A stretch of 46,070 nucleotides of DNA, taken from the IMG/VR virus record IMGVR_UViG_3300009176_000019, positions 1 to 46,070 of that record; one strand, given 5' to 3'. The first letter of the stretch is position 1, and every line of letters begins with the position of its first letter. This document shows positions 5,440-46,070 of the stretch, in pieces. The notes under the pieces were generated by a model that saw only the letters and a program-made list of their open reading frames with translations, was not told the origin of the DNA and did no database searches. This DNA comes from a virus. The position numbers and the translations under genes are program-made.

Positions 5440-6900
5440 ATGGCAGCTGGCGCGCGACTGATTGACTCAATGTACCTGTCAGGGGCGGGCAGCGCAGCCG
5501 CATCTGGCACCGTTAACTTCTACGGCGTCGGGACGCTCGTGCCGGCCATCGTGTACGCCGACGACACGCTGTCGACTCCGCTCACGCAGCCCATTACGCT
5601 CGACGCAAGCGGAAAGCTACCGTCCCCCGTCTACACCGCGACGCCGCTGCGCATGATAGTGAAGTCGTCTGGCGGGACGACGCTGTACGACGTCGCGCGG
5701 CTCGACGGCGACAGGGCCGAACTCGTGGGCGTGTCGAACGCTGCGTGGACCGCGACCGACCTGAACAGCGTCTTGACGGCGGTGCAGTCTAGTCTTGGCG
5801 GCACTGACGCGCGGTTCCTCGCGGCCTCGGCCGGCGCAGTCGCCAGGAACGTACAGGCGAAGTTCTCCGAGGTGCAGCTTTCGGTAAAGGACTTCGGCGC
5901 CGTCGGTAACGGCATCGCCGATGACACGGTTGCTATCCAGGCCACGATCACCTCCGTCAGGACCGCGGGCGGCGGGACGGTGTACATCCCTCCTGGTACC
6001 TACAAGATCACGTCTACGCTGACGCTCAGCACGAACAGCGTCATCATCGCGGGCGCCGGGATCGGGACGTCCATCATCAGCAACGCCGGTACAGGCGCGG
6101 TAATCACGCTGTCCAACGGGACATACCGGGCGGCCATCAGGGACCTGCAAATCTCCGGTGGCTCTTCTGCTGGGTCTGCCATTTCTGTCGCCGGTGGGAC
6201 AGCTACGTACCTTGAGAGGATCTATATCGACGGCATCGCCAAGGCGGTTTCGGGAGCAGGCGGCACGATCTACATGTATTCGTCGACGCTCATCGGCACG
6301 ACGACTGCCGTTGACACCACGGGCCCAGTCTATGCCATGGCGACGTCATTCACCGGCGCTAGTACGTACGGGCTCACCGTGGTCGGAAGCGTCCAGGTGT
6401 ATCTAACCGGCTGCACGCTTGGCGGCCCGACGGCGGGACTGAACATCGGAGCCGGCGCATCGCTTACGGCGGCTGGATGCGTGTCCGGATTCGGTAGCCC
6501 TGGTCTCAACATCGCCGTCGGTGCGGGCGAGGTACTAAGCGGCGGCTGCGACTGGGGAACCGTCACGGACGGCCGAACTGGCGCCCCGGTGAACTACGTG
6601 TTCGCTGGCGCCAACAACATGACGCCGCTCCCGAATCAGGCCGACGTAATCCGCGTCGAGCAGCAGACGGGCGGCGTCGTGACGACCATCAACAACATCT
6701 CGACGATGTACATGGGCAAGGAGTTCACGCTTGTCTGCACGAACACGTCGGGCGGCGCGTCGAACTTCACCTTCGGGGCCGCCTACGTGCTGTCTGCTGC
6801 GGTCGCACCTGCGGCGGCCAATCGTGTAGCGCTCAAGCTGTACTACGACCCGAGGACGTCAAAAGTGTACGAGGTTGGACGAGCGGCGACAGCGAACTAG
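5440..6900 (+). CDS. Tailspike with pectate-lyase-type beta-helix
   Basis: A 486-residue protein with TAGGAG 6 bases before its ATG. Residues 1-95 form a head-binding style domain (ARLIDSMYLSGAGSAA, FYGVGTL and a YDVARLDGD end), typical of podovirus tailspike N-termini. Residues 149-163 (VKDFGAVGNGIADDT) are the signature that opens pectate-lyase-3 beta-helix domains, followed by about 300 residues of Gly/Thr/Ser-rich strands. It should bind and probably cleave or deacetylate a host surface polysaccharide. Catalytic residues cannot be fixed from sequence alone. Confidence 0.85.
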   Translation: MAAGARLIDSMYLSGAGSAAASGTVNFYGVGTLVPAIVYADDTLSTPLTQPITLDASGKLPSPVYTATPLRMIVKSSGGTTLYDVARLDGDRAELVGVSNAAWTATDLNSVLTAVQSSLGGTDARFLAASAGAVARNVQAKFSEVQLSVKDFGAVGNGIADDTVAIQATITSVRTAGGGTVYIPPGTYKITSTLTLSTNSVIIAGAGIGTSIISNAGTGAVITLSNGTYRAAIRDLQISGGSSAGSAISVAGGTATYLERIYIDGIAKAVSGAGGTIYMYSSTLIGTTTAVDTTGPVYAMATSFTGASTYGLTVVGSVQVYLTGCTLGGPTAGLNIGAGASLTAAGCVSGFGSPGLNIAVGAGEVLSGGCDWGTVTDGRTGAPVNYVFAGANNMTPLPNQADVIRVEQQTGGVVTTINNISTMYMGKEFTLVCTNTSGGASNFTFGAAYVLSAAVAPAAANRVALKLYYDPRTSKVYEVGRAATAN

Positions 6901-6980: not shown

Positions 6981-8489
6981 GTGCCAACAGGCGTCATCGA
7001 CATCTCAAACGGGCAGGTCGCATCAGCCGAGGACACTCCCGGCCGTGCTCGCACGGTGACGAACTTCCTTCCCGATGTGCTCGGGAATAACGTGGTTCGC
7101 CCTGGCATCTCCAACGCCACGTTCGACCCGACGAACAGCCGGGTCGCGTCCGGCACGAATGCCGACGTCATCGGCGCGTACGTCTGGACGAACCCAGTCG
7201 ACCGCACGGACTACCTGATTTACGTCCGCCGCGACCGTACCATCTGGGCGAAGAATCTCCTGACGCTGGTCAAGACGGCTCTCTCGAGCGCGGTCATCAC
7301 GACTCAGCTCGACGGCAACGCTGGGCGGGTTACCTTCGCCGAAGATTCTGGCCGCCTCATCCTGGCCGGCGGCGGACAGCTTCAGACGTGGGCGGGCGTC
7401 ATCGGCGTACTGTCGTCTCGGCTCGCGGCGTTCACTCTTGGCGTGAATCAGCCGCCGCTCGGCTGCACGCACGTCGTGAAGCTGGCGAACTACGTCGTTG
7501 CGAACAATCAGTACCCCGGATCGCTGAACCAGTTCATATGGTCGGCCATCGGCGACGGGTCGGACGGCACGTGGCCACCGCTGAACTTCAACACGGCAGA
7601 CGCGCGCCCTGACCCTGTCATCGCCGTCTGGGAGAACCTGCGCGAGCTGTACATCTTCGGCACGCAGACGATCCAGACCTACGGCATCACGGCTGATTCG
7701 GCGCTGCCGTTTCAAGCGTCGGCGTCGGTTGGTCTAGGCACGACGTCGCCATACTCCATCATCCGCCTGGATACTACGTTCGCGCTGCTCGACAACCAGA
7801 AGCGTTTCGTGTCCACCGACGGGCGCGGGTTCGACGTGATGAGCGACGCCATCGCGAAGACGATCCAGGACATCTCGACCGTCTCGGACTGCTGGGGATT
7901 TCGCGCCATCATCGGCCACTGGGATCTGCTCGTGTGGGTCTTCCCGGCGGCGAAGACGGCCTACTACTACGAGCAGAACCAGAAGAAGTGGGGCACGCTG
8001 CGCGGCTGGAACGGCACCGACGACTTCACCGCCATCCGCATCGGGGCGTACGTCTACTGGCCCGGCGGCGGGATGCACATGATCGGTGACTCGCTGTATG
8101 ACAACATCTTCACCTGGGAGCCGTCGGTGACGACGGACGTCTCTCCCGCCGGTACCGCCACGCTGCCCATCGTCGCCGAGCGCATCACCGGCAGAATCAG
8201 CTACGACACCACGAAGCGGAAGCGGCGCAACGGCGTGCGCGTGACGCTTCGTCGCGGGTCGGCAACGCAGGTCGGCTCGTCCATCGAGATCGCCAAGGCC
8301 GACGACGATGGGCCGTGGAGTTCGCCGACGACGCTCGACTTGGGGACGACGGCTGGCGACCTGTCCAGCTCGCGTCCGTGGTACCCGGATGGCGTGTACC
8401 GTCGCGCCCAGTATCGGTTGCGCTACTCCAACGCGGCCGAAAACACGGTGGTAGGCATCGAAGAGGACTACTCGGTGATGGCAAGCTAA
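6981..8489 (+). CDS. Tail hub / DNA stabilization protein, P22 gp10-like
   Basis: A 502-residue beta-rich protein with GTG start. It has the long run of propeller-like strands (ENLRELYIFGTQTIQTYG; LLDNQKRFVSTDGRGFDVMS; YYYEQNQKKWGTLRGW) seen in P22 gp10-type packaged-DNA stabilization proteins, which form the hexameric tube below gp4 to which tailspikes attach. The C-terminal third (about 385-500) is another beta domain. Gene order gp4-like, spike, gp10-like supports the call. It overlaps the next gene by 1 base. Confidence 0.75.
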   Translation: MPTGVIDISNGQVASAEDTPGRARTVTNFLPDVLGNNVVRPGISNATFDPTNSRVASGTNADVIGAYVWTNPVDRTDYLIYVRRDRTIWAKNLLTLVKTALSSAVITTQLDGNAGRVTFAEDSGRLILAGGGQLQTWAGVIGVLSSRLAAFTLGVNQPPLGCTHVVKLANYVVANNQYPGSLNQFIWSAIGDGSDGTWPPLNFNTADARPDPVIAVWENLRELYIFGTQTIQTYGITADSALPFQASASVGLGTTSPYSIIRLDTTFALLDNQKRFVSTDGRGFDVMSDAIAKTIQDISTVSDCWGFRAIIGHWDLLVWVFPAAKTAYYYEQNQKKWGTLRGWNGTDDFTAIRIGAYVYWPGGGMHMIGDSLYDNIFTWEPSVTTDVSPAGTATLPIVAERITGRISYDTTKRKRRNGVRVTLRRGSATQVGSSIEIAKADDDGPWSSPTTLDLGTTAGDLSSSRPWYPDGVYRRAQYRLRYSNAAENTVVGIEEDYSVMAS

Positions 8490-24987: not shown

Positions 24988-25464
24988 ATGCCTCACTGGA
25001 GATCGATGATGGATTCGGAGTGGCTGCGCGCGTGCGACCTTGCAGGGCGCGAGCCGACGGTGATTATCTCGAAGGTCGTTGGCGGCCAGGTAGTCGGCGA
25101 GGGTGGCAAGAAGAGCAAGAAACCGATCCTCTTCTTCAGGGGGAAGGACAAGCCGCTAGCCATAGGCGCGACCATCGGTAAGACCATTCAGGGGCTCTAC
25201 GGGCCCAAGACAGAGGACTGGGTCGGCAAGGCTGTCACGCTCTACACGACGACGACCAACTCGACGGGTGGCGAGACGGTAGAGTGCATTAGGGTACGTA
25301 ACGTCGTTCCAAACGCTGCCCGCGCATCGACGAGCTCGCCTGCCAAGACAGAGACGCCGCCGACGGCTGGCTTCCCGGTTGACCGCGAGTCTGGCAGCGA
25401 CGACGGGTATGACGACGATGCGGCGCGAGCTGCTGCGGCTCCTGGACCTGGAGAGACGCCATGA
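24988..25464 (+). CDS. Phage early protein found beside recombination nucleases (158 aa)
   Basis: The N-terminus MPHWRSMMDSEWLRACDL and the later KPILFFRGKDKPLAIG and LYGPKTEDWVGKAVTLY segments match a conserved early phage protein that usually precedes PD-(D/E)XK exonuclease and SSB genes. The beta-rich core resembles nucleic-acid binding folds, but its biochemical role is not established to my knowledge. The C-terminal 50 residues are acidic and disordered. ATGA overlap with the exonuclease. Confidence 0.65.
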   Translation: MPHWRSMMDSEWLRACDLAGREPTVIISKVVGGQVVGEGGKKSKKPILFFRGKDKPLAIGATIGKTIQGLYGPKTEDWVGKAVTLYTTTTNSTGGETVECIRVRNVVPNAARASTSSPAKTETPPTAGFPVDRESGSDDGYDDDAARAAAAPGPGETP

Positions 25465-26285
25465 TCGACGAGGCGGTTACGGCGCGGCCGATGCTCGATG
25501 CCGATGGAGTCAGGTTCAGCCGATTGAAGCTCTTCGCAGAATCGCCCATGCACTACCTGGCCAACGTACGGCCGAAGTCGTCCGTGCTGGACGGCGGCAC
25601 GGCGGTCCATTCCATTCTGCTCGGAGGCAAGCGAGTGACGTACTACGCCGAGGAGACGGCGTCAGGTGCGTCATCCCCGCGGCGGGGCGCCAAGTGGGAG
25701 TCGTTCAAGGCGGACAACTCCGACGCGGTCATTTTGTCGCGCTCCGAATACGACTCGGCGAACCGCATCGCCGAGGCCGTCCGGTCGAACGAGCTGGCCA
25801 TGATGGCGCTGACGGGCGTCAAGGAACAGACGCTGCGGTTCGACTGGCAGGGTCTCCAGGCACGCACGACTCCGGACTGCCGAGCGAATGACCACACGTT
25901 CGTCACCGAACTCAAGACCTGCCGCTCGTCGCGTCCTGGCCGCTTCGCATCGCAAGCGTTCTGGATGTACTACCATGCGCAGATGGCGTTCCATATCGAG
26001 GGGATGAAGGCTAACCGGCTAGTCAAGCTCAAGCAGACGCCGATCGCATACATCGTCGCCGTCTGTTCGGCCGAGCCGTATCCGGTCACCGTCTTCAAGC
26101 TGACCGACAAGGCGCTGGAACAGGGACGCAAGTCGCTGGTGCTATGGACAGAGCAGCTTCGCGGGTGCATCGCCTCGCGGCACTTCCCGGCGTACTCGCA
26201 GGCCGTCGTGGACCTGGACGTACCTGAAGGTGACGAGCTGGTGTTCGCTGATGGCGAGACGGAGAGCGAAAACATTCCCTTCTGA
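25461..26285 (+). CDS. RecE-like PD-(D/E)XK exonuclease (274 aa)
   Basis: Matches the phage exonuclease-VIII-like domain: SPMHYLA near 28-34, GTAVHSILLG at 46-55, Pro138-Asp139 and Glu150-Leu-Lys152 forming the PD-(D/E)XK site, then the FWMYYHAQMAFH helix near 167-178. Such nucleases chew one strand of duplex ends for single-strand annealing. No annealing protein of the Bet/RecT type was recognised next to it, so the SSB or the preceding protein might cooperate. Confidence 0.85.
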   Translation: MIDEAVTARPMLDADGVRFSRLKLFAESPMHYLANVRPKSSVLDGGTAVHSILLGGKRVTYYAEETASGASSPRRGAKWESFKADNSDAVILSRSEYDSANRIAEAVRSNELAMMALTGVKEQTLRFDWQGLQARTTPDCRANDHTFVTELKTCRSSRPGRFASQAFWMYYHAQMAFHIEGMKANRLVKLKQTPIAYIVAVCSAEPYPVTVFKLTDKALEQGRKSLVLWTEQLRGCIASRHFPAYSQAVVDLDVPEGDELVFADGETESENIPF

Positions 26286-28319: not shown

Positions 28320-28462
28320 TCAGTGCGGACGTTACCGGACGCTCCCTAGTTCGAGTCATGTAGGTAACTGTGTAGTTTCGTGGGGCGGACTTTTCTCTTG
28401 ACGTGAAAGCAACAATCTGCGACTGTGGTTGTGTCTAGGTCAGGGGGATTCATCCATGCACA

Positions 28463-28544
28463 AGAGCCCTTCAGAGCTGCCCGTTCCTCCTCGTGACCTA
28501 GACAATCGCGTGGGTGACCGGGACGGTCAGCTCCGAGGGGCTCT
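28463..28544 (+). other. Long RNA hairpin ahead of the HNH gene
   Basis: Bases 28463-28472 pair with 28535-28544, 28474-28479 with 28528-28533, and 28481-28487 with 28520-28526, giving about 23 pairs with two single mismatches (28473/28534 and 28480/28527) and a few G-T pairs, around a 32-base loop. It is followed by CTTTCCGTTTT and by the GGAGG of the HNH gene. This could be a terminator or attenuator, or an RNase III processing site separating the operon in two. A weak TTGACG-like -35 lies at 28398. Confidence 0.65.
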
Positions 28545-28563
28545 TTCCGTTTTGGAGGCAGAG

Positions 28564-29094
28564 ATGGCAAAGAAGCCGTCCTACTCGGACTTGCTTAAGG
28601 ACCCCAGGTGGCAGCGCAAGCGTCTCGAGATCCTTGACCGCGATGGCTGGACGTGCCGCGAATGCTCCTCCAGGGAAAAGACGCTGCACGTACACCACAG
28701 GTCGTACGACGGTCGCAAGCCGTGGGAGTACGAAGAGGATCTTCTGCTGACTCTGTGCGAGGACTGCCATGGCTCGGTAACGGAGGCAGCTAAGGCTCTT
28801 AAGCAGGTACTCTCTGAGATCTGGCCAGGAGACCTTGAAGTTGTCCTTGGATTTGCTGCTGCATTGCTGGCAACTAAGCGAGGTGGTCGACAGGAAATCG
28901 GAAGCCTGTGTCAAGCCACTGGCGCAGCCGCCTATTACGGGCTTCTGCCCGATGAAGTCATGGCATCTTCGGAGAACGGATCCGTCGACGCTCAACGTCT
29001 GGAGCTAGTCGGAGCTGCCAGGTCTACCGCCTTTGTCGACGCCAGGCTGATGGGGATTGAGTCAATTATCGGTAAGCGCGGAGAGGGTAAGTGA
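28564..29094 (+). CDS. HNH endonuclease (176 aa)
   Basis: The ATG preceded by GGAGG at 28554 is chosen; in-frame upstream starts would run through the hairpin. Residues 14-70 are a classic McrA-like HNH: WQRKRLEILDRDGWTCREC, LHVHHRSY at 41-48, WEYEEDLLLTLCEDCHG at 54-70, with two CxxC zinc pairs. The rest is helical and unrecognised. It may be a homing enzyme or a replication or packaging nuclease. Its GTGA overlap with the next gene ties it to the replication protein. Confidence 0.85.
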   Translation: MAKKPSYSDLLKDPRWQRKRLEILDRDGWTCRECSSREKTLHVHHRSYDGRKPWEYEEDLLLTLCEDCHGSVTEAAKALKQVLSEIWPGDLEVVLGFAAALLATKRGGRQEIGSLCQATGAAAYYGLLPDEVMASSENGSVDAQRLELVGAARSTAFVDARLMGIESIIGKRGEGK

Positions 29095-37589: not shown

Positions 37590-37816
37590 CCATCGAGGAG
37601 GTAGAATCCAGGTGGGGCGGTTACTGGCTTGAGACCGCGATGGTCGCGCTGTCCGTGCGAGTCAGGCCGGACGGTCTAATCGAGGCGCACCGTCCTACGT
37701 CTGACGAATTAGAGGCACACCTGTCAGAGCGGTTCGGATCTCCTGACAAGCTCCCGTTTAGGAACCTTACCTGCGAGTCGCCCGCGCTGGCATACGTCTT
37801 CACGGGGAAGACATGA
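37586..37816 (+). CDS. Hypothetical protein (76 aa)
   Basis: GTGA overlap on the left and ATGA on the right. Mixed alpha/beta (YWLETAMVALSVRVRPDGLIE). Function unknown, possibly linked to packaging. Confidence 0.5.
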   Translation: MTIEEVESRWGGYWLETAMVALSVRVRPDGLIEAHRPTSDELEAHLSERFGSPDKLPFRNLTCESPALAYVFTGKT

Positions 37817-39267
37817 TTTCGGAGGCCATCTGGAAGCCGACTCCGAAGCAGGGCCTCGCCCTGTCGTGTCCGGTGTTCGAGCTCCTATACGGCGGCGGTG
37901 TCGGGGGCGGAAAAACCGACTTCCTGCGCGTCGACTTCATCCCTCAGCTCGAGGTAGCTACCAAGAAGTGGCGAGAGACCGGAAAGAAGTCGCTCGGTAA
38001 CGCGCTGCTGGTTAGGAAAGAGTTCCCTCGGCTCAGGGACATCATCCGCCAGCAGCAAGAGCTGTTCCCGCAGATAGACGCAGGCGTTTCGTGGCGGGAG
38101 AACGAGCACGCTTTCAGGTTTTCGTGCGGCTACATGTTCGAGGTTGGCCACCTAGAGGGCCCGAACGACGAACAGAACTACCAGGGACGGCAATTCACCT
38201 GGCTAGGGTTCGACCAGCTTGAGGAGATCCCGAAGTACCAGTACGACTTCCTAAAGATGCGTGTCCGCAGCGCAGATCCGCATCTCCAGCCGCTTCACCG
38301 CGTCCGCAGCACCTGCAATCCGATGGGTCGGCACGTCGGGTGGGTCAAGGAACGGTTCTACGACCCCTGCAAACAGGGCTTCAAGATCATCAGCGAGACC
38401 GTAGAAACCTCGCAGGGCAAGAGGACGCTCGAGCGCGTTTGGGTGCCGGCTCTACTGCGTGACAACCCGCACATGCCGCCGGAGTACGAGGCTCAGCTTT
38501 TGCTGATGCCTGACCACTACCAGCGCGCATTTCTTTACGGCGACTGGGACGTCGTCCCTGGCTCGTTCTTCGGCGACGTGTTCGACCCGCGCATTCACGT
38601 GTGCGACCCGTTCGAGCTTCCGAAGAACTGGGAAGTGTTCCGCGCCGCCGACTGGGGATCGCGCGCGCCGGCCTGCTGCCTGTGGATCGCCGTCGACAAC
38701 GACAGCAACCTCGTGGTCGTCGAGGAGCTATACGGTCCTGGGCAGACTGGAACCATCTTCGGTAAGAAGATTCTCGAGATAGAAGAAGCCTGGGGCTGGA
38801 CCGACTCCAAGGGCTTCTCGAAGCTGCACGGCTACATGGACCACCAGGGCCGCCAGAGCTACGGCGCCGAAGGGCCGACGCCCACCGAAGCGATGATTGA
38901 GATGGGCATCTCGTGGTTCGACGCCGATAAGGAGCGAAAACTCGGCTGGACAGAGATTCGGCGCCGCCTGATGGAGCGCAGCGGCCCCGCCGGCAAGACG
39001 CCCGGACTGCGCATCTTCCGCAACTGCCGGAACCTCATCCGTACCTTGCCGAATCTTGTTGCCAAGCCGGAAGACATGGACGACATCGACAGCAAACAGG
39101 AAGACCACGCCGCAGACGCGCTCCGCTACGGATGCATGTCGCGGCCCATGTCTCGGTACGGAGAGGACACTGGCAAGACGGAGATGGACGCGTGGGAGCA
39201 GCTCATTGCCGCTCGCAAGCTTCACTCTGACATCAAGGGCGCTCGGAACCCTACGACGGGATACTAG
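37813..39267 (+). CDS. terL: Terminase large subunit
   Basis: A 484-residue packaging motor and nuclease. Residues 27-35 (GGGVGGGKT) are the Walker A; TWLGFDQLEE at 129-138 is Walker B with its catalytic acid. The nuclease part starts with RAADWGSRAP, continues with GYMDHQGRQ and ends in EDHAADALRYG, matching RNase H-type terminase nucleases. It should cut and pump the genome into proheads. Headful packaging is consistent with the circularly permuted assembly. Confidence 0.92.
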   Translation: MISEAIWKPTPKQGLALSCPVFELLYGGGVGGGKTDFLRVDFIPQLEVATKKWRETGKKSLGNALLVRKEFPRLRDIIRQQQELFPQIDAGVSWRENEHAFRFSCGYMFEVGHLEGPNDEQNYQGRQFTWLGFDQLEEIPKYQYDFLKMRVRSADPHLQPLHRVRSTCNPMGRHVGWVKERFYDPCKQGFKIISETVETSQGKRTLERVWVPALLRDNPHMPPEYEAQLLLMPDHYQRAFLYGDWDVVPGSFFGDVFDPRIHVCDPFELPKNWEVFRAADWGSRAPACCLWIAVDNDSNLVVVEELYGPGQTGTIFGKKILEIEEAWGWTDSKGFSKLHGYMDHQGRQSYGAEGPTPTEAMIEMGISWFDADKERKLGWTEIRRRLMERSGPAGKTPGLRIFRNCRNLIRTLPNLVAKPEDMDDIDSKQEDHAADALRYGCMSRPMSRYGEDTGKTEMDAWEQLIAARKLHSDIKGARNPTTGY

Positions 39268-39276
39268 GGAGGGACC

Positions 39277-39459
39277 ATGTACGACGTGAGAGTTGTGAAC
39301 GGCGAGGGTGAGAAGATTTTCGGGCCATACGAGCGCATGGAAGACGCCGCCACGGAGCGCGACCGCTGGGTTGCCACTGGCGGATGCTCGACCATCGAGA
39401 TTCGGCCCATCAAGGTCGCCTCTGAAGACCCGACCCCGCGCCCGGTGAAGAAGAAGTGA
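39277..39459 (+). CDS. Small hypothetical protein (60 aa)
   Basis: Between terminase and portal. Short alpha/beta protein (YDVRVVNGEGEKIFGPY; CSTIEIRPIKV) with a basic end. GTGA overlap with the portal gene. Function unknown. Confidence 0.6.
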   Translation: MYDVRVVNGEGEKIFGPYERMEDAATERDRWVATGGCSTIEIRPIKVASEDPTPRPVKKK

Positions 39460-41705
39460 ACGACCTTACCGGCGGCGCGATGACGCCCGAGATGGGCGAT
39501 GAAGACGGCGACGAGACCGTGTCGGTGAGCCTCAACGAGCCCGGGGAAGAAGCCGCGCCCGCTGTTCCGCCTCCCGCCGGACCGCCAGAATCCATCAACC
39601 TAGTCGAGTTCCTTCCGAAAGGCGAGGCCGACCGGATCGCTCAGCGCGTGGTGACCGACTTCACTGCCGACGTCGAGTCCGGCTCGAAGCACATGGAGCG
39701 GCTCAAGCGGTGGGCCGAACTCTACTCGTCGGTGATGAAGGCGAAGACGTGGCCATTCGACCGCGCCGCCAACGTCAACGTGCCGCTAGTCGAGTACACG
39801 GTGCTCCAGATTCAGGGCCGGCTGTTCGACATGATTTTGCCGGCCAAGGGCGAGCTTTTCCACTCGCTACCGCTCGATCAGCGCCCCGAGGAGTTGGACC
39901 GCGCCAACCGGACCGAACTCAAGCTGAACTACCTGTGCCGGCACGAGATCCCCGGCTTCATCCAGATTTACGACGAGCTTCTTTTCCAGATGTCGCTCTA
40001 CGGCTCGGCGTTCATGAGCTACATGTGGAACGAAGAGGAGGGCTATCCGCAGCCCGAGTGCATCTCGGCGGCTGACATGGTCGTTCCATTCGGCTCCAAG
40101 TCGAAGTCGCCGCAAATGAAGGGCGTCCCGCGCTACACGCGCATTCGCTGGATGACCTATTACGACCTGATGGAGAAGGGCGCCGAGGGCTTTTTCTACG
40201 GCACGGAGGAAATCAAGGCGGTCCCGGCGTCCGAGGGCAAAAACTCCGAGATGCAGGAGACGATTAACGAGATTTCTGGCATGGACAAGCCCGGTTTCTC
40301 GACGATCGAGGACGACGAGCGCGAAGTGCTCGAGATGCATATCCGCTGGCTAAAGATGCCGAACGCTCCGGACAAGCATCCGTCGTTTGACGGCAAGCCG
40401 CACGCCGTTATCGCCTGGGTGGACGCCGAGAGCGAGCGACTTTTGCGACTCGTGCTGCGCGAGGAGCCCGATCCGAAGGATCAACAGCGCTTCGACAAGG
40501 AGAAAGCTGCCGTAGACGCCGCTCGGCAGGCGCTCCAGCAGTTCATCGACGCGAACGGCGTCCAGGCGGACCCGATGACGGGTCAGCTCATCCCGATCCC
40601 GAAGCCGCCGCCCGTTCCTCCCGAGCCGAAGCCGGTACGTGTGCGCGAAGTGACGTTTTTCACGCACTACCGAGCCTTCCCGAGCGAGGGATTCTACGGG
40701 CTCGGCTACGGCGACATTTGCGGGCCGCTTAACGAGGCGATGAATACCATCGTCAACCAGTCCATCGACCGCGGCACCGTCAACAACGCGCGCGGCGGCT
40801 TCGTTTCGCGTCAGCTTCGCTTCAATCGCGGCGCCCTGACCCTCCAGCCAGGACAGTTCGTTGAGATCGACGCCCCGCCGGCCGCGATGAAGGACGGTTT
40901 GCAGCCGATGCCGGCGATTCCGGCCGACCCGACGATGATGGAGATCGCCGGGATGATCGAGCAGTGGGCGCAGCGTTCGGCGGGGTCTGGCGACACGCTC
41001 AGCGGCGAGCCCATCGGGTCGAACGAGACCGCCCGCGCAGCCATGTTGCGGAACGAGAACGCGCAGAAGCAAATCAACGTGCTCGGTTCGCGCGTCATCT
41101 CGTACATGAAGAACGACGTGGACATGATCTGGCGCCTGCTGTCGGTCTTCCTTCCCGAAGGCGATAATCAGAGCGTCTTGGGACAGGACGGTCAGCCGAC
41201 GAACATCCAGGTATCGCGCGCCGACTTCATCGCCGACCAGCGCGTCTTCCCTGCCGCTGACCCGCGCGTAACGTCACGCTCGCAGCGTATCAATGACGCC
41301 GCCGAGGCGATGCAGATGGCGATGCAGAACCCGATTCTCGCCCAGAACCCGAACGTCATCCGCGCCCTGACCGAGCGAGAACTGCACGCCCGCGACATGG
41401 CAGACATCATCACGCTCCTCGCGCCGAATCCGCCGCCTCCACCGCCCCCTGTCCCTCAGACGCAGGAGAACGCGGACTTCCTTCAGGGCAAGCAGCCGCA
41501 AGTCAACCCGCAGGACAACCATCGCCAGCACCTCGAAGAGATGGCGACGTTCAAGATGTCGCCCGAGTATCAGGCCATGACGCCAGAGCAGCAGCAGGCT
41601 TTCGAGCAGCACGGCCGCAACCACATCGGCGAAGCGATGAAACAGGAGCACGCGAATGGACAACCCCCAGGACCAGTTAACGTTCCTCCTCCTGTCGGAG
41701 GCTGA
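39456..41705 (+). CDS. Portal protein, P22-type
   Basis: A 749-residue protein with GTG start. The acidic N-terminus leads into WPFDRAANVNVPLVEYT, a conserved element of long podovirus portals, then long helices and a C-terminal Gln/Pro/His-rich tail. Portals form a 12-subunit ring at one capsid vertex. Size and place after terL support the call. Its last 50 bases overlap the next gene. Confidence 0.85.
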   Translation: MNDLTGGAMTPEMGDEDGDETVSVSLNEPGEEAAPAVPPPAGPPESINLVEFLPKGEADRIAQRVVTDFTADVESGSKHMERLKRWAELYSSVMKAKTWPFDRAANVNVPLVEYTVLQIQGRLFDMILPAKGELFHSLPLDQRPEELDRANRTELKLNYLCRHEIPGFIQIYDELLFQMSLYGSAFMSYMWNEEEGYPQPECISAADMVVPFGSKSKSPQMKGVPRYTRIRWMTYYDLMEKGAEGFFYGTEEIKAVPASEGKNSEMQETINEISGMDKPGFSTIEDDEREVLEMHIRWLKMPNAPDKHPSFDGKPHAVIAWVDAESERLLRLVLREEPDPKDQQRFDKEKAAVDAARQALQQFIDANGVQADPMTGQLIPIPKPPPVPPEPKPVRVREVTFFTHYRAFPSEGFYGLGYGDICGPLNEAMNTIVNQSIDRGTVNNARGGFVSRQLRFNRGALTLQPGQFVEIDAPPAAMKDGLQPMPAIPADPTMMEIAGMIEQWAQRSAGSGDTLSGEPIGSNETARAAMLRNENAQKQINVLGSRVISYMKNDVDMIWRLLSVFLPEGDNQSVLGQDGQPTNIQVSRADFIADQRVFPAADPRVTSRSQRINDAAEAMQMAMQNPILAQNPNVIRALTERELHARDMADIITLLAPNPPPPPPPVPQTQENADFLQGKQPQVNPQDNHRQHLEEMATFKMSPEYQAMTPEQQQAFEQHGRNHIGEAMKQEHANGQPPGPVNVPPPVGG

Positions 41706-41976
41706 CCTGTCCCGATGGCGGGAGGACCCGGTAACGGTCCTATTCCTGCGCCACCTGGACCGCCTCAGGGACCTCCACCAAGCTGAGTGCGTTAACCATG
41801 GCCTCGTCGCCCACCCGCAGACGCCAGCGTACGCTGGCCGCGCTGACATTGCAGATCGGCTACTAAGGGACTGCACCGAGCCGCGCATCAAGGAAGATTT
41901 GGTCACCACCGACAGCACATTCGTAGACCCCCGGCTCAAAAAGGTGAGAAAACATGGTCAAACCGACGCTCAATAA
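41656..41976 (+). CDS. Hypothetical protein overlapping the portal end (106 aa)
   Basis: ATG with AGGAG upstream, in another frame. Helical first half (LSEADLSRWREDPVTVLFLRH) and His/Arg-rich middle. Overlaps the co-chaperonin gene by 23 bases. Function unknown; may aid capsid assembly. Confidence 0.6.
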   Translation: MDNPQDQLTFLLLSEADLSRWREDPVTVLFLRHLDRLRDLHQAECVNHGLVAHPQTPAYAGRADIADRLLRDCTEPRIKEDLVTTDSTFVDPRLKKVRKHGQTDAQ

Positions 41977-42451
41977 CCCGGTAGTCCGCAGCGGCGCGAA
42001 GATTCCCCTCTACCCGACCGGCGACCGCGTGGTCGTCGAGAAGCTGGAGAGCGCCGAGGAGATGGTAGGCGGCATCGTCATCCCCGGCACGGAGAAGGCC
42101 GTCAGCTTGTACGCCACGGTCATCGCGGCCGGCCCGCTCGCAATGGACGTGCTCCGCGACGCATGCATCGGCATCGGCGACACGGTGTGCATTGGAAAGT
42201 ACAGCGGTGTCGCGTGGGAATGGCGTCCAGACGGAGGCGTTAAGTTCGAGCGCGTCGAGATCATCAACGTCAAGGACATCTACGGGTCAGTCGAGCTCTG
42301 CGACAAGATCATGACCGGCAAGCTCGGCATCGACCTGCACCAGGAGAGCGACGGCGTGACCCGTCACCGATTCTTCGAGGAACAAGAGTTCACGGTCGGG
42401 CCAGCGCTCGAAGAGTCTCCCAGGAATAGCGAGACGAAGGAGGTTGCGTAA
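41954..42451 (+). CDS. GroES-like co-chaperonin (165 aa)
   Basis: Residues 18-111 follow the Cpn10 fold: YPTGDRVVVEKLE, the mobile-loop region with GGIVIP (39-44, the I-V-I being the GroEL-binding tripeptide), TVIAAGP, IGDTVCIGKYSG and the end VEIINVKDIYG. A 55-residue acidic/His tail is extra. A phage Cpn10 usually replaces host GroES to fold the coat protein, as T4 gp31 does. Placement between portal and scaffold and before the coat gene fits this. Confidence 0.85.
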   Translation: MVKPTLNNPVVRSGAKIPLYPTGDRVVVEKLESAEEMVGGIVIPGTEKAVSLYATVIAAGPLAMDVLRDACIGIGDTVCIGKYSGVAWEWRPDGGVKFERVEIINVKDIYGSVELCDKIMTGKLGIDLHQESDGVTRHRFFEEQEFTVGPALEESPRNSETKEVA

Positions 42452-43333
42452 ATGGCACTCTCGAAAGAAGCCGCCAAGGATTCCGAGCTTCCCGAGGAAG
42501 TCGTCGCTGAAGTCGAGGCCGCTGAGGGCGGTCAAGACGCAGGCGGCGAAGATGAAGGAGAGCAGCAAGTCACCGTCCGCCTGTCGCGCCGAAAGAAAGA
42601 GCAGCAGGAGCGCGAGGAGCGCATGGCTGCGCTCGAATCTGACCGGACTGCCCGCGCGCAAGAGGCCGAACGACTGCGGCAGGAACTCGCCCAGACCCGC
42701 GAGGCTCAGGCTCGCATGCAAGGCATCCTCGAGCAGATGCAGCGCATGCCCGCCGGACGCGATGGCGGCCGAGAAGATGCGCCGGTCGATCTGCGCGACA
42801 AGCTTGACGAACTGCGAAGGCAGGCTGGCACGGCTCTCGGCAAGCAGGATCTCGAGGAGTACCACCGCAATCTAGAGGCGGTAATGGACGTCAAGGCCGA
42901 GATGAAGGCCCGCGCCATCGTCGCCGCCCAGCAGAAGAACATGCCGGCTCCGCAGCAGCAGGCGCCGCAAAAACCCGACTGGGTGCGCGCCATCGAGTTC
43001 CAGTATCCCGACGTGCTCACTGACCCGCGCGGTCAGCACACGGTAGGCATCTTCGACAGCCTCCTCGGTCAGTCGGAGCAGTTCGGGCCGCAGCGATTGC
43101 ACAAGGCTTTCCAGCGCGCCCGCACCGAGCTCGGCTTGGCTCAGGCGCCGGCCGCTTCGAACCAGGCGCGTCAGCTCCACACCGGCATCAGCTCCAGCTC
43201 CGTTGGACGCCGGACCGCGAACGGAGACAGCACGATCAAGATGCCTAGAGAGTCGCTGGATGTAGGCAGGAAAGCAGGCATGACCAGCGCGGAGTACGCA
43301 AAGGCTTGGCGCGATTCGTACGGCAGCGAATGA
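42452..43333 (+). CDS. Scaffolding protein
   Basis: Begins immediately after the co-chaperonin stop. Residues 1-45 are acidic; residues 45-110 a charged coiled coil (RRKKEQQEREERMAAL onward); then a Gln/Pro linker near 165-175 and a helical end. Acidic-helical composition, 293 residues, and place before the coat gene are those of scaffolding proteins. The C-terminal basic region may contact coat protein. Confidence 0.75.
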   Translation: MALSKEAAKDSELPEEVVAEVEAAEGGQDAGGEDEGEQQVTVRLSRRKKEQQEREERMAALESDRTARAQEAERLRQELAQTREAQARMQGILEQMQRMPAGRDGGREDAPVDLRDKLDELRRQAGTALGKQDLEEYHRNLEAVMDVKAEMKARAIVAAQQKNMPAPQQQAPQKPDWVRAIEFQYPDVLTDPRGQHTVGIFDSLLGQSEQFGPQRLHKAFQRARTELGLAQAPAASNQARQLHTGISSSSVGRRTANGDSTIKMPRESLDVGRKAGMTSAEYAKAWRDSYGSE

Positions 43334-43496: not shown

Positions 43497-43997
43497 ATGG
43501 CATGGCCGAAAGGTAAGTCGAGAAAGCCGGTAGGCGGCGAAGTGCGGCAGGATGCCGCTCCCGCTCCAGTCCAGCAGGTCTGGCGCACCGACCAGACGAA
43601 CGAGCGCCCCGGGTTCAAGCGCCAGTTCATGCGCGAGAACGAGGTGAACGACCGGAGCCGTCCGAAGTCGGTCTTCAATCGCGAGACCGGTGAGATGGTC
43701 CGAGTCGCCCCCTGGGCCGTGGTGTCCGAGGCGGACGCCGGGCTCGTGCGCGAGCGCCCCGACCTGGCTCAGCCGGTCGATACGGTGGCCCGCATGGGTC
43801 CTCACGTTCTCATGGAGATCCCCGAGGACGACTGGAACATGTTGCAGCACGAGAAGGACGCCGTTGCCGATGCGCAGGCCGACCGTCTCATGGCGGGGCA
43901 GCACTTCGAGGCGACCGACGAATCGGTCGTCCGTATCAAGCAGAACAAGTTTGCAGTTCACCCCGCCTTGATGGGCGGCCTGGTCAACGGAGGGTAA
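43497..43997 (+). CDS. Head-region hypothetical protein (166 aa)
   Basis: Charged, Arg/Glu/Asp-rich protein with basic N-terminus (PKGKSRKPVGG) and long helical middle (DDWNMLQHEKDAVADAQADRL). No family recognised. Placed between scaffold and decoration/coat genes, it may be a head assembly protein. Confidence 0.6.
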   Translation: MAWPKGKSRKPVGGEVRQDAAPAPVQQVWRTDQTNERPGFKRQFMRENEVNDRSRPKSVFNRETGEMVRVAPWAVVSEADAGLVRERPDLAQPVDTVARMGPHVLMEIPEDDWNMLQHEKDAVADAQADRLMAGQHFEATDESVVRIKQNKFAVHPALMGGLVNGG

Positions 43998-44003
43998 CGT
44001 CAC

Positions 44004-44609
44004 ATGGCAAATGCAGCTCGTACCGGTTTCTGGCCCGTCCACAACCAGGGCGCCACGGCGACCCAGGAAAAGCGGGTCCGCGTCGCTTCGAACAACGGCA
44101 CCGCTGTCTTCCTCGGCGACTGCGTGACCCGCACTGCTGCTGGCGTCTGGGGCCTCGCGACGCCCGGCGCTGGCGTGTCCGGAATCTCGCAGGGGGCCAG
44201 CTACTACGACTCGTCCCAGCTCGTCCGCAAGGAGGGCGCGTACCTGCCAGCCTCGACGACCTACTCCTCGACGGCGTTCGACATGTACGGGGAGACTGAC
44301 CAGTCCTTCCTCCGCATCACGGCCGACCCGCTGAACGTTCGCTACGAGTGCCAGGCGAAGGCTTCCACCACGGGCGCCATCACCGACACCACGAAGAACG
44401 CCAACTTCTCGGCCGGCGCCGGCTCGACCACGACCGGTATCTCGGGACACCTGCTCGATACGCTGGCGACGACCGCCGCTCTCGACTTCTCCGTCATGGA
44501 CGTCAAGCGCAACGTCCTGAACGACCCGACAGCGGTGAACTTCAAGTTCATCGTCCAAATCAACATCCTGACCGTCCCGCCCGTCGCCGCTGGCGCGGCC
44601 GGAAACTAA
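44004..44609 (+). CDS. Putative capsid decoration protein (201 aa)
   Basis: Gly/Ala/Thr-rich beta protein with the opening RTGFWPVHNQGATATQEKRVRV and long runs of short strands, 6 bases after the previous gene. Small beta proteins just before the coat gene are often head decoration proteins. No motif clinches it. Confidence 0.6.
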   Translation: MANAARTGFWPVHNQGATATQEKRVRVASNNGTAVFLGDCVTRTAAGVWGLATPGAGVSGISQGASYYDSSQLVRKEGAYLPASTTYSSTAFDMYGETDQSFLRITADPLNVRYECQAKASTTGAITDTTKNANFSAGAGSTTTGISGHLLDTLATTAALDFSVMDVKRNVLNDPTAVNFKFIVQINILTVPPVAAGAAGN

Positions 44610-44620
44610 GGAGCCGACCG

Positions 44621-45517
44621 ATGCCGATGAATTCAGCCAGTATCTACAAGTCCATCGAGCCGGTGGTCCGCCACTTCTGGGGACTCTCGAAGCAGGAGGC
44701 CAAGCCGGTCTTCTCGCAGATCTTCGACACCGAAGAGACCGAAGAGCCGATTCTCGACGCCGTGGAGTACGGCGGCCCCGGAACGATGACCTACAAGCCC
44801 GAGAACGACCGCATCGTCTCGGACCAGATCATCCAGGGAGTCAACAAGCGGTGGGCGGCGCAGACCTTCGCGACGGCCATCGAAATTAGCCTGGAAGCCG
44901 TCGAGGACACGAAGTACGGCGCCATCAAGACGGCAGCCAAGTCCCTCGGCCGAGCTGCCAACCTGACCCCCGAGTACCTGGCCGCGCAGTTCCTCGACCG
45001 CGCGTTCAACACGTCTTACCCGGCGCTCGGCGATAACCTGACCCTGTGCAACACCGCCCACCTCATCCCCAAGGGCGGAACGTACAGCAACCAGCTCTCG
45101 ACCCCATACTCTCTGTCCGAGTTCGCGCTCGAGCAGATTTTCCAGAACCTCGCGGTCATCCCCTGGACCGACGGCATGATCATGCCGCTGACCCCGAAGA
45201 AGCTGGTCGTGCCGGTCGCTCTGGGGCCGCTGGCCTGGAAGCTCTCGGCGACCCAGCTTCAGGTAGGTTCGGCGAACAATGACCTCAGCTACATCGCCGG
45301 CAAGTTCGAGCCGGTGGTCTTCCCCTTCCTCGGGTCGAACACTCGGTACTTCGTGACCACGAACGCCGACGACGGTCTGTTCTGGAAGTGGCGTGTCAAG
45401 CCGCAGTTCATGCGTGACAACGTCGACATGCTGACCCAAGCGCTGTTCATCTCGCGGTTCCGAGCCTACTGGGGCTGCATCGACGGCCGCGGCATCTACG
45501 GCGTCAACGCGGTGTAA
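44621..45517 (+). CDS. Major capsid protein
   Basis: A 298-residue protein with AAGGAG upstream; longer in-frame starts would be antisense-like Arg-rich sequence inside the previous gene. Helix near N-terminus (EPVVRHFWGLSKQEAKPV), then a beta domain with MTYKPENDRIVSDQ, EISLEAVEDTKYGAIK and the C-terminal FWKWRVKPQFMRDNVDML, consistent with an HK97-fold coat protein. Gene order scaffold, head proteins, coat supports it. Related to phage coat families of about 300 residues. Confidence 0.8.
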   Translation: MPMNSASIYKSIEPVVRHFWGLSKQEAKPVFSQIFDTEETEEPILDAVEYGGPGTMTYKPENDRIVSDQIIQGVNKRWAAQTFATAIEISLEAVEDTKYGAIKTAAKSLGRAANLTPEYLAAQFLDRAFNTSYPALGDNLTLCNTAHLIPKGGTYSNQLSTPYSLSEFALEQIFQNLAVIPWTDGMIMPLTPKKLVVPVALGPLAWKLSATQLQVGSANNDLSYIAGKFEPVVFPFLGSNTRYFVTTNADDGLFWKWRVKPQFMRDNVDMLTQALFISRFRAYWGCIDGRGIYGVNAV

Positions 45518-45526
45518 GGAGCGACC

Positions 45527-46070
45527 ATGCCAGTGACCAATTTTCCAGGGGGAGCTAGTAGCTACGGCATCCCCCTTGTGGGACAGGGCACCGTCTATGA
45601 CATGCCGTGGGGCGCAACGTGGTTCGTCAACAACCGTACCGGCATCGTCAACGGCGACGGCACGAACAGGGATCGACCCATGGTGTCGCTGGCGGATGCG
45701 CTCGCTCGCGCGTCTGCGTATGACACCATCTATGTCGGTCCCGGGCATGCCGAAAACGTCACGGCGTCGAACACGTTCAGCGGTGCAGTCACCGGCGGGC
45801 CTAACACCGGCGCGCAGACCATCCCGCAGGGCGTTCGCATCATCGGGGAGGGCTCCGGGACAAACCGGCCGACCTTCACGCTGACGGCGGTTGCATCTAC
45901 CTTCGCCCTGGCGGCGGCGAACTCGTCGATCGAGAACGTGCGCATCCTGTCCCCCCAGACTGGATCGACCACGACCACGACGATGGTCACCGTCACTGCG
46001 GCAGGTTGCGCTGTGCGGTCTTGCCAGTTCCAGGGATCAGCCTCGGCGACCGCCTTCGTCACCACTGGAA
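45527..46070 (+). CDS. Beta-helix virion protein, N-terminal part (continues at base 124)
   Basis: ATG with AAGGAG upstream, 9 bases after the coat gene. The frame runs to the end and continues through the repeated 123 bases into 1-563. The block near residues 50-75 (RDRPMVSLADALARASAYDT then IYVGPGHAENV) is shared with the protein at 776. Probably a capsid-associated beta-helix. Total about 327 residues. Confidence 0.8.
   Translation, partial: MPVTNFPGGASSYGIPLVGQGTVYDMPWGATWFVNNRTGIVNGDGTNRDRPMVSLADALARASAYDTIYVGPGHAENVTASNTFSGAVTGGPNTGAQTIPQGVRIIGEGSGTNRPTFTLTAVASTFALAAANSSIENVRILSPQTGSTTTTTMVTVTAAGCAVRSCQFQGSASATAFVTTG
45948..46070. repeat. Direct terminal repeat, right copy
   Basis: Identical to bases 1-123; see the left copy. 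It closes the molecule into a 45,947-bp circle. Confidence 0.95.

Follow-up and report, generated by a model that had tools for sequence, protein, structure and literature searches.

The stretch of viral DNA analyzed here (the window; 46,070 bases) carries an exact 123-base direct terminal repeat, with positions 1-123 identical to positions 45948-46070. Because the same 123 bases stand at both ends, the record represents a complete genome of ~45,947 bp, circularly closing or permuted. Relatives of 46 to 47 kb match this size. The head module of the window has the order terminase, portal, small gene, Cpn10, probable scaffold, 166-aa gene, 201-aa gene and coat:

37813..39267, plus strand: terminase large subunit (phrog_979, E 6.4e-27)
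39456..41705, plus strand: portal protein, 749 aa, 83.4 kDa (tblastn to portal and head-to-tail connecting proteins)
41656..41976, plus strand: small gene, 106 aa, overlapping the end of the portal gene and the beginning of Cpn10; a small gene occupies this place in many relatives as well
41954..42451, plus strand: Cpn10/GroES-type co-chaperonin gene, ATG start, 165 aa (PF00166, phrog_3188, GroES in the PDB)
42452..43333, plus strand: probable scaffolding protein, 293 aa (position; hhalign 96.8%, E 2.6e-10 against the gene at the same place in 11 relatives)
43497..43997, plus strand: head-module gene, 166 aa, syntenic in relatives (hhalign 80.8%, E 1.3e-5)
44004..44609, plus strand: head-module gene, 201 aa, syntenic in relatives (hhalign 99.7%, E 3.9e-25)
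44633..45517, plus strand: major capsid protein, 294 aa, 32.7 kDa (PF25209 and the Mu gpT-like PF10124 over cut-off; phrog_371)

The coat protein is a member of the Mu gpT-like / Phage_capsid_4 group. The Cpn10 stop codon (TAA, 42449-42451) is followed without any gap by the ATG of the probable scaffold gene at 42452. A previous reading of the sequence alone had placed the co-chaperonin gene between a portal-overlapping gene and the scaffold gene, and it is indeed flanked by 41656-41976 on one side and by this ATG on the other. The scaffold label itself agrees with the position and the remote profile match to the relatives' genes, but no family hit was obtained, and 42452..43333 is thus a probable scaffolding protein. 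Elsewhere in the window, positions 5440-6900 encode a tail-spike-like protein, followed at 6981-8489 by a phrog_578 'head closure Hc3' protein, and 25461-26285 and 28429-29094 encode an exonuclease VIII-like protein and an HNH endonuclease. Most of the other window genes tested had no PHROG match.

The gene at 41954-42451 is a genuine phage Cpn10/GroES co-chaperonin. GroES is the lid of the bacterial protein-folding machine. The full Cpn10 pattern noticed in the sequence-only reading was recovered by PF00166 over residues 19-90 (E 2.5e-11; 43.9 bits with a curated cut-off of 21.1), by phrog_3188 'co-chaperonin GroES' over residues 21-113 (E 8.3e-10) and by solved GroES/Cpn10 chains (best E 1.4e-7). 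That reading had also staked its claim on the modelled fold. The single-chain AlphaFold2 model, built from 52 sequences with a mean pLDDT of only 69, matched GroES of the GroEL-GroES crystals 4pko and 1aon in Foldseek (probability 1.00, E 2e-4 to 7e-4). Furthermore, the barrel core differs from that of the 97%-identical relative L003 by 22 synonymous changes and 1 non-synonymous change, which indicates strong purifying selection on the gene. The protein could be divided as follows:

42008..42286, plus strand: Cpn10 barrel, residues 19-111 (Pfam and PHROG stretches; modelled strands 25-30, 53-59, 77-80, 86-90 and 99-105)
42050..42100, plus strand: mobile loop with GGIVIP, residues 33-49 (pLDDT <50; alignment to GroES loops)
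42134..42160, plus strand: roof region, residues 61-69 (short helix in the model where GroES has the roof hairpin)
42290..42379, plus strand: conserved C-terminal module, residues 113-142 (helix 113-120 and hairpin 124-130/136-142 in the model; alignment with relatives L004, L005 and L112)
42386..42448, plus strand: variable, disordered acidic end, residues 145-165 (pLDDT <50; largely absent in L004, L005 and L112)

The GGIVIP motif, proposed earlier as the mobile loop, was confirmed at residues 39-44, inside the stretch modelled as disordered (33-49), as expected of a mobile loop. By homology, it would be the GroEL-binding element. The loop has the same length as that of E. coli GroES and aligns with it without insertion. 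Bacterial GroES proteins (E. coli, alphaproteobacteria) share the family and the mobile-loop length with the window Cpn10, but they are encoded beside groEL, are ~95-105 aa long, and have a roof hairpin and no extension. Among the phage relatives, the Cpn10 of Alcaligenes phage QDWS535 (L013:3531-3872) was found without the usual GG-I/V-x mobile-loop motif, having KALGIDLSAS after an insertion; its GroEL binding may differ.

The textbook phage lid is T4 gp31, which is explained by an oversized coat protein. Like the window Cpn10, gp31 is a phage co-chaperonin with the GroES fold (1g31 match, Foldseek probability 0.97). However, T4 gene 31 is not beside capsid genes, and gp31 has no helix-hairpin extension of the kind observed here. 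In T4, gp31 caps GroEL to fold the coat protein gp23, which is far larger than the window coat (~56 kDa as opposed to 32.7 kDa), and its mobile loop is longer, with 22 residues compared to 16 (PMC6318259). The roof region of the window Cpn10 is ~4 residues shorter than that of E. coli GroES and was modelled as a helix rather than a hairpin. The same roof helix, together with the C-terminal helix and strands, was present in the model of L112 (48% identical). Roof loops do not define the Cpn10 family, because gp31 lacks them as well (PMC6318259).

The roof, and the large portal of 83.4 kDa, could be taken to mean that the window Cpn10 is a modified lid that enlarges the cage for an oversized client in the manner of gp31. 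We consider such an enlargement quite unlikely, since the mobile loop is of GroES length, the coat protein is only 32.7 kDa, and other members of the coat lineage have roof loops as long as those of GroES. The same loop length and coat mass mean that the gp31-style rationale of a larger cage cannot be transferred to this phage. The sequence-only reading had proposed that coat folding in the host requires a modified cage. Its co-chaperonin stands, and the linkage to the coat lineage points to the folding of a head protein, whereas the modified or enlarged cage is not supported, only the roof being different in the model. More plausible than a larger cage is a lid tuned to the coat protein by affinity, timing or roof chemistry, or one that guards against a shortage of host GroES.

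The C-terminal extension comprises 54 residues (112-165) and is net acidic, with 12 D/E, 6 K/R and a pI of 4.66. It had been described before as an acidic tail of 55 residues. The extension and its acidity were verified, but most of it is a conserved helix and hairpin in the model, and disorder and variability are confined to the last ~21 residues. Residues 113-142 are kept down to the 48%-identical L112, and because the same C-terminal elements were modelled there, the so-called tail is mostly a conserved folded module. In the Cpn10 of L112 (L112:5000-5548), the C-terminal hairpin carries a CPDCGG...HNC insertion, a possible zinc-binding loop.

The module might serve as a docking element for the scaffold or coat protein, through which the lid would hand the folded coat to the growing prohead. 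Its conservation in the window clade and the abutment of the Cpn10 and scaffold genes are in line with such a function. Other phages of the lineage, however, share the gene order yet do not have the module, and evolution is faster in the tail than in the core (dN/dS of 0.13 versus 0.01 between the window and L003); docking is therefore distinctly improbable in our judgment.

The coat and portal relatives identified in the phage collection were pelagiphages HTVC023P and HTVC027P, 023Pt_psg01, roseophages CRP-901/902, Caulobacter phages GB2A/RW/RLK/KcrB, Alcaligenes phage QDWS535, DSL-LC04, the 65-kb cyanophages Pag-Yong1/MinM2/Pra-JY27 and several Manatee Spring genomes. These phages showed the same gene order, with the GroES gene directly before the scaffold gene. 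The head-module GroES of HTVC023P/HTVC027P, CRP-901/902, Pag-Yong1, DSL-LC04, Caulobacter RW/RLK and QDWS535 has the Cpn10 fold as here, within the shared order of portal, small gene(s), Cpn10, scaffold, two small genes and coat, again with no GroEL. The sequences have nevertheless diverged, as the GroES of HTVC023P-type and related phages is only ~20-31% identical to the window Cpn10, and the 54-residue extension is present in the deep-branching window clade but not in the other head-module GroES phages. Cpn10 was annotated merely as hypothetical in RLK and GB2A and was found there by search.

All 19 complete genomes tested that encode a related coat protein contained Cpn10 (13 by the Pfam model and 6 by tblastn), and in 18 of them Cpn10 and the coat gene shared a strand, with Cpn10 ~2-3 kb upstream (12 judged from the annotated neighbourhood and 6 from match coordinates). 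The count leaves aside MW202604, an apparent twin of MW202601, and the 10.8-kb fragment MT836833, and the genomes are not independent of each other. Phage co-chaperonins had previously been summed up as T4 gp31 and a few others, which understates a Cpn10 found in every complete coat-lineage genome tested. The sole relocation seen was in ct7ZZ929, whose Cpn10 (L204:2200-2664, corresponding to MW202601.1 13699-14163) is near a single-strand-binding protein (SSB) gene outside the head module, so the operon position is not obligatory. This phage had been a candidate for a coat-lineage member without Cpn10, which was ruled out when a search of the whole record located the gene.

Searching IMG/VR with just one profile yielded at least 596 candidate stretches, and 80 viral contigs were kept. 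The coat gene was 1.97 to 2.24 kb downstream of Cpn10 in 54 of these, and in the other 26 the contig or locus stops within ~2.1 kb. The distance from the Cpn10 stop to the scaffold start, zero in the window, was -8 to +18 bases in 13 of the 15 phages compared. By contrast, no Cpn10 turned up in a control set of just six phages related by the terminase alone, in a search that recovered T4 gp31 as a positive control. The Cpn10 and coat tree distances were highly correlated (Mantel rho of 0.86 to 0.88, with 0 of 2000 permutations as high), the Cpn10 tree being based on 106 columns. These data show that Cpn10 has stayed within the capsid module and has been passed on together with the coat protein.

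The lid could instead serve a general take-over of the host folding machine, for early or bulk folding of phage proteins, with the scaffold adjacency reflecting only an inherited gene order. The SSB-gene neighbourhood of the ct7ZZ929 Cpn10 would fit this explanation, and gp31 can support the folding of every normal GroES client (PMC6318259). Yet the adjacency to the scaffold gene is kept in 18 of 19 genomes, Cpn10 is missing from the six phages sharing only the terminase, and it is co-inherited with the coat protein, so that we regard a general take-over as unlikely. The linkage of Cpn10 to the coat lineage points to head-protein folding. Since the portal and coat travel together, the linkage cannot tell which of the two is the client.

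A further explanation is that the phage captured a host GroES, which plays no particular part in the head. In tblastn, alphaproteobacterial GroES (E ~1e-7) indeed matched the window Cpn10 better than the known phage Cpn10s did, and in a quick 75-row tree the window clade, with long branches, came out near bacterial GroES. In a careful tree of a smaller set with the longest branches left out, all phage rows fell on one side of the branch from bacterial GroES with moderate, not decisive, support (83/90), and the window clade formed a long and deep branch. Host capture was not accepted, as the careful tree did not reject a single phage clade. In addition, the locus is the same as in the relatives, and the Cpn10 and coat trees are congruent. 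A captured host gene without a head role is thus very improbable, although with support of 83/90 the window-clade Cpn10 may derive from an old independent capture. A search of bacterial genomes for a close relative of the window Cpn10 found none. Cpn10 matches in unannotated 'phage' records were dropped as phage relatives because they look like bacterial groES (L010 has only bacterial-type genes). L009, L010 and similar records, filed under Enterococcus, Listeria or faecal phages, appear to carry bacterial groES and are likely contamination of the phage collection.

No GroEL gene was found in the complete 46,070-base genome, in relatives L002 to L004, or in 13 further related records, and the partner must therefore be the GroEL of the host. 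We consider it quite probable that the protein is a head-module co-chaperonin capping host GroEL while the coat (or portal) protein folds. Cpn10 would be made together with the head proteins and would form a heptameric lid that binds host GroEL via the GGIVIP mobile loop, competing with or supplementing host GroES. In this way it would drive the folding of a head protein by GroEL; the coat (32.7 kDa) is the most likely client, and the portal a possible one. The C-terminal helix and hairpin would lie on the outer face of the lid, where they could adjust the roof opening or the choice of partner. A bolder proposal, which we hold to be unlikely, is that a lineage with a coat of ordinary size needs a GroEL lid of its own whatever the host, the helix-hairpin (with the possible zinc-binding CPDC...C loop in L112) acting as a docking crown that couples the release of coat or portal from GroEL to scaffold-driven prohead assembly.

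The presence of GroES in such phages has been reported, as one of the 13 core genes of HTVC023P-type phages (PMC9599517) and in a figure of CRP-901-type phages (PMC10149686), and it is annotated in many of the related phage records. PMC7185714 cites Marine et al. 2017 on virioplankton chaperonins. Within the incomplete coverage of our literature search, we found no paper stating the lineage-wide link between Cpn10 and the coat protein. The window clade is a new, deep branch of a known head-module GroES, with its own unusual C-terminal module. The GroES beside this capsid points to a dedicated helper for building the shell, which extends something already known. In phages of SAR11, Roseobacter, Caulobacter, cyanobacteria, Alcaligenes and unknown hosts alike, a Cpn10 goes with a coat protein of normal size, and cage size is therefore insufficient as a general explanation of phage lids. 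With cultured systems in the lineage, it can be asked why a phage replaces the lid of its host.
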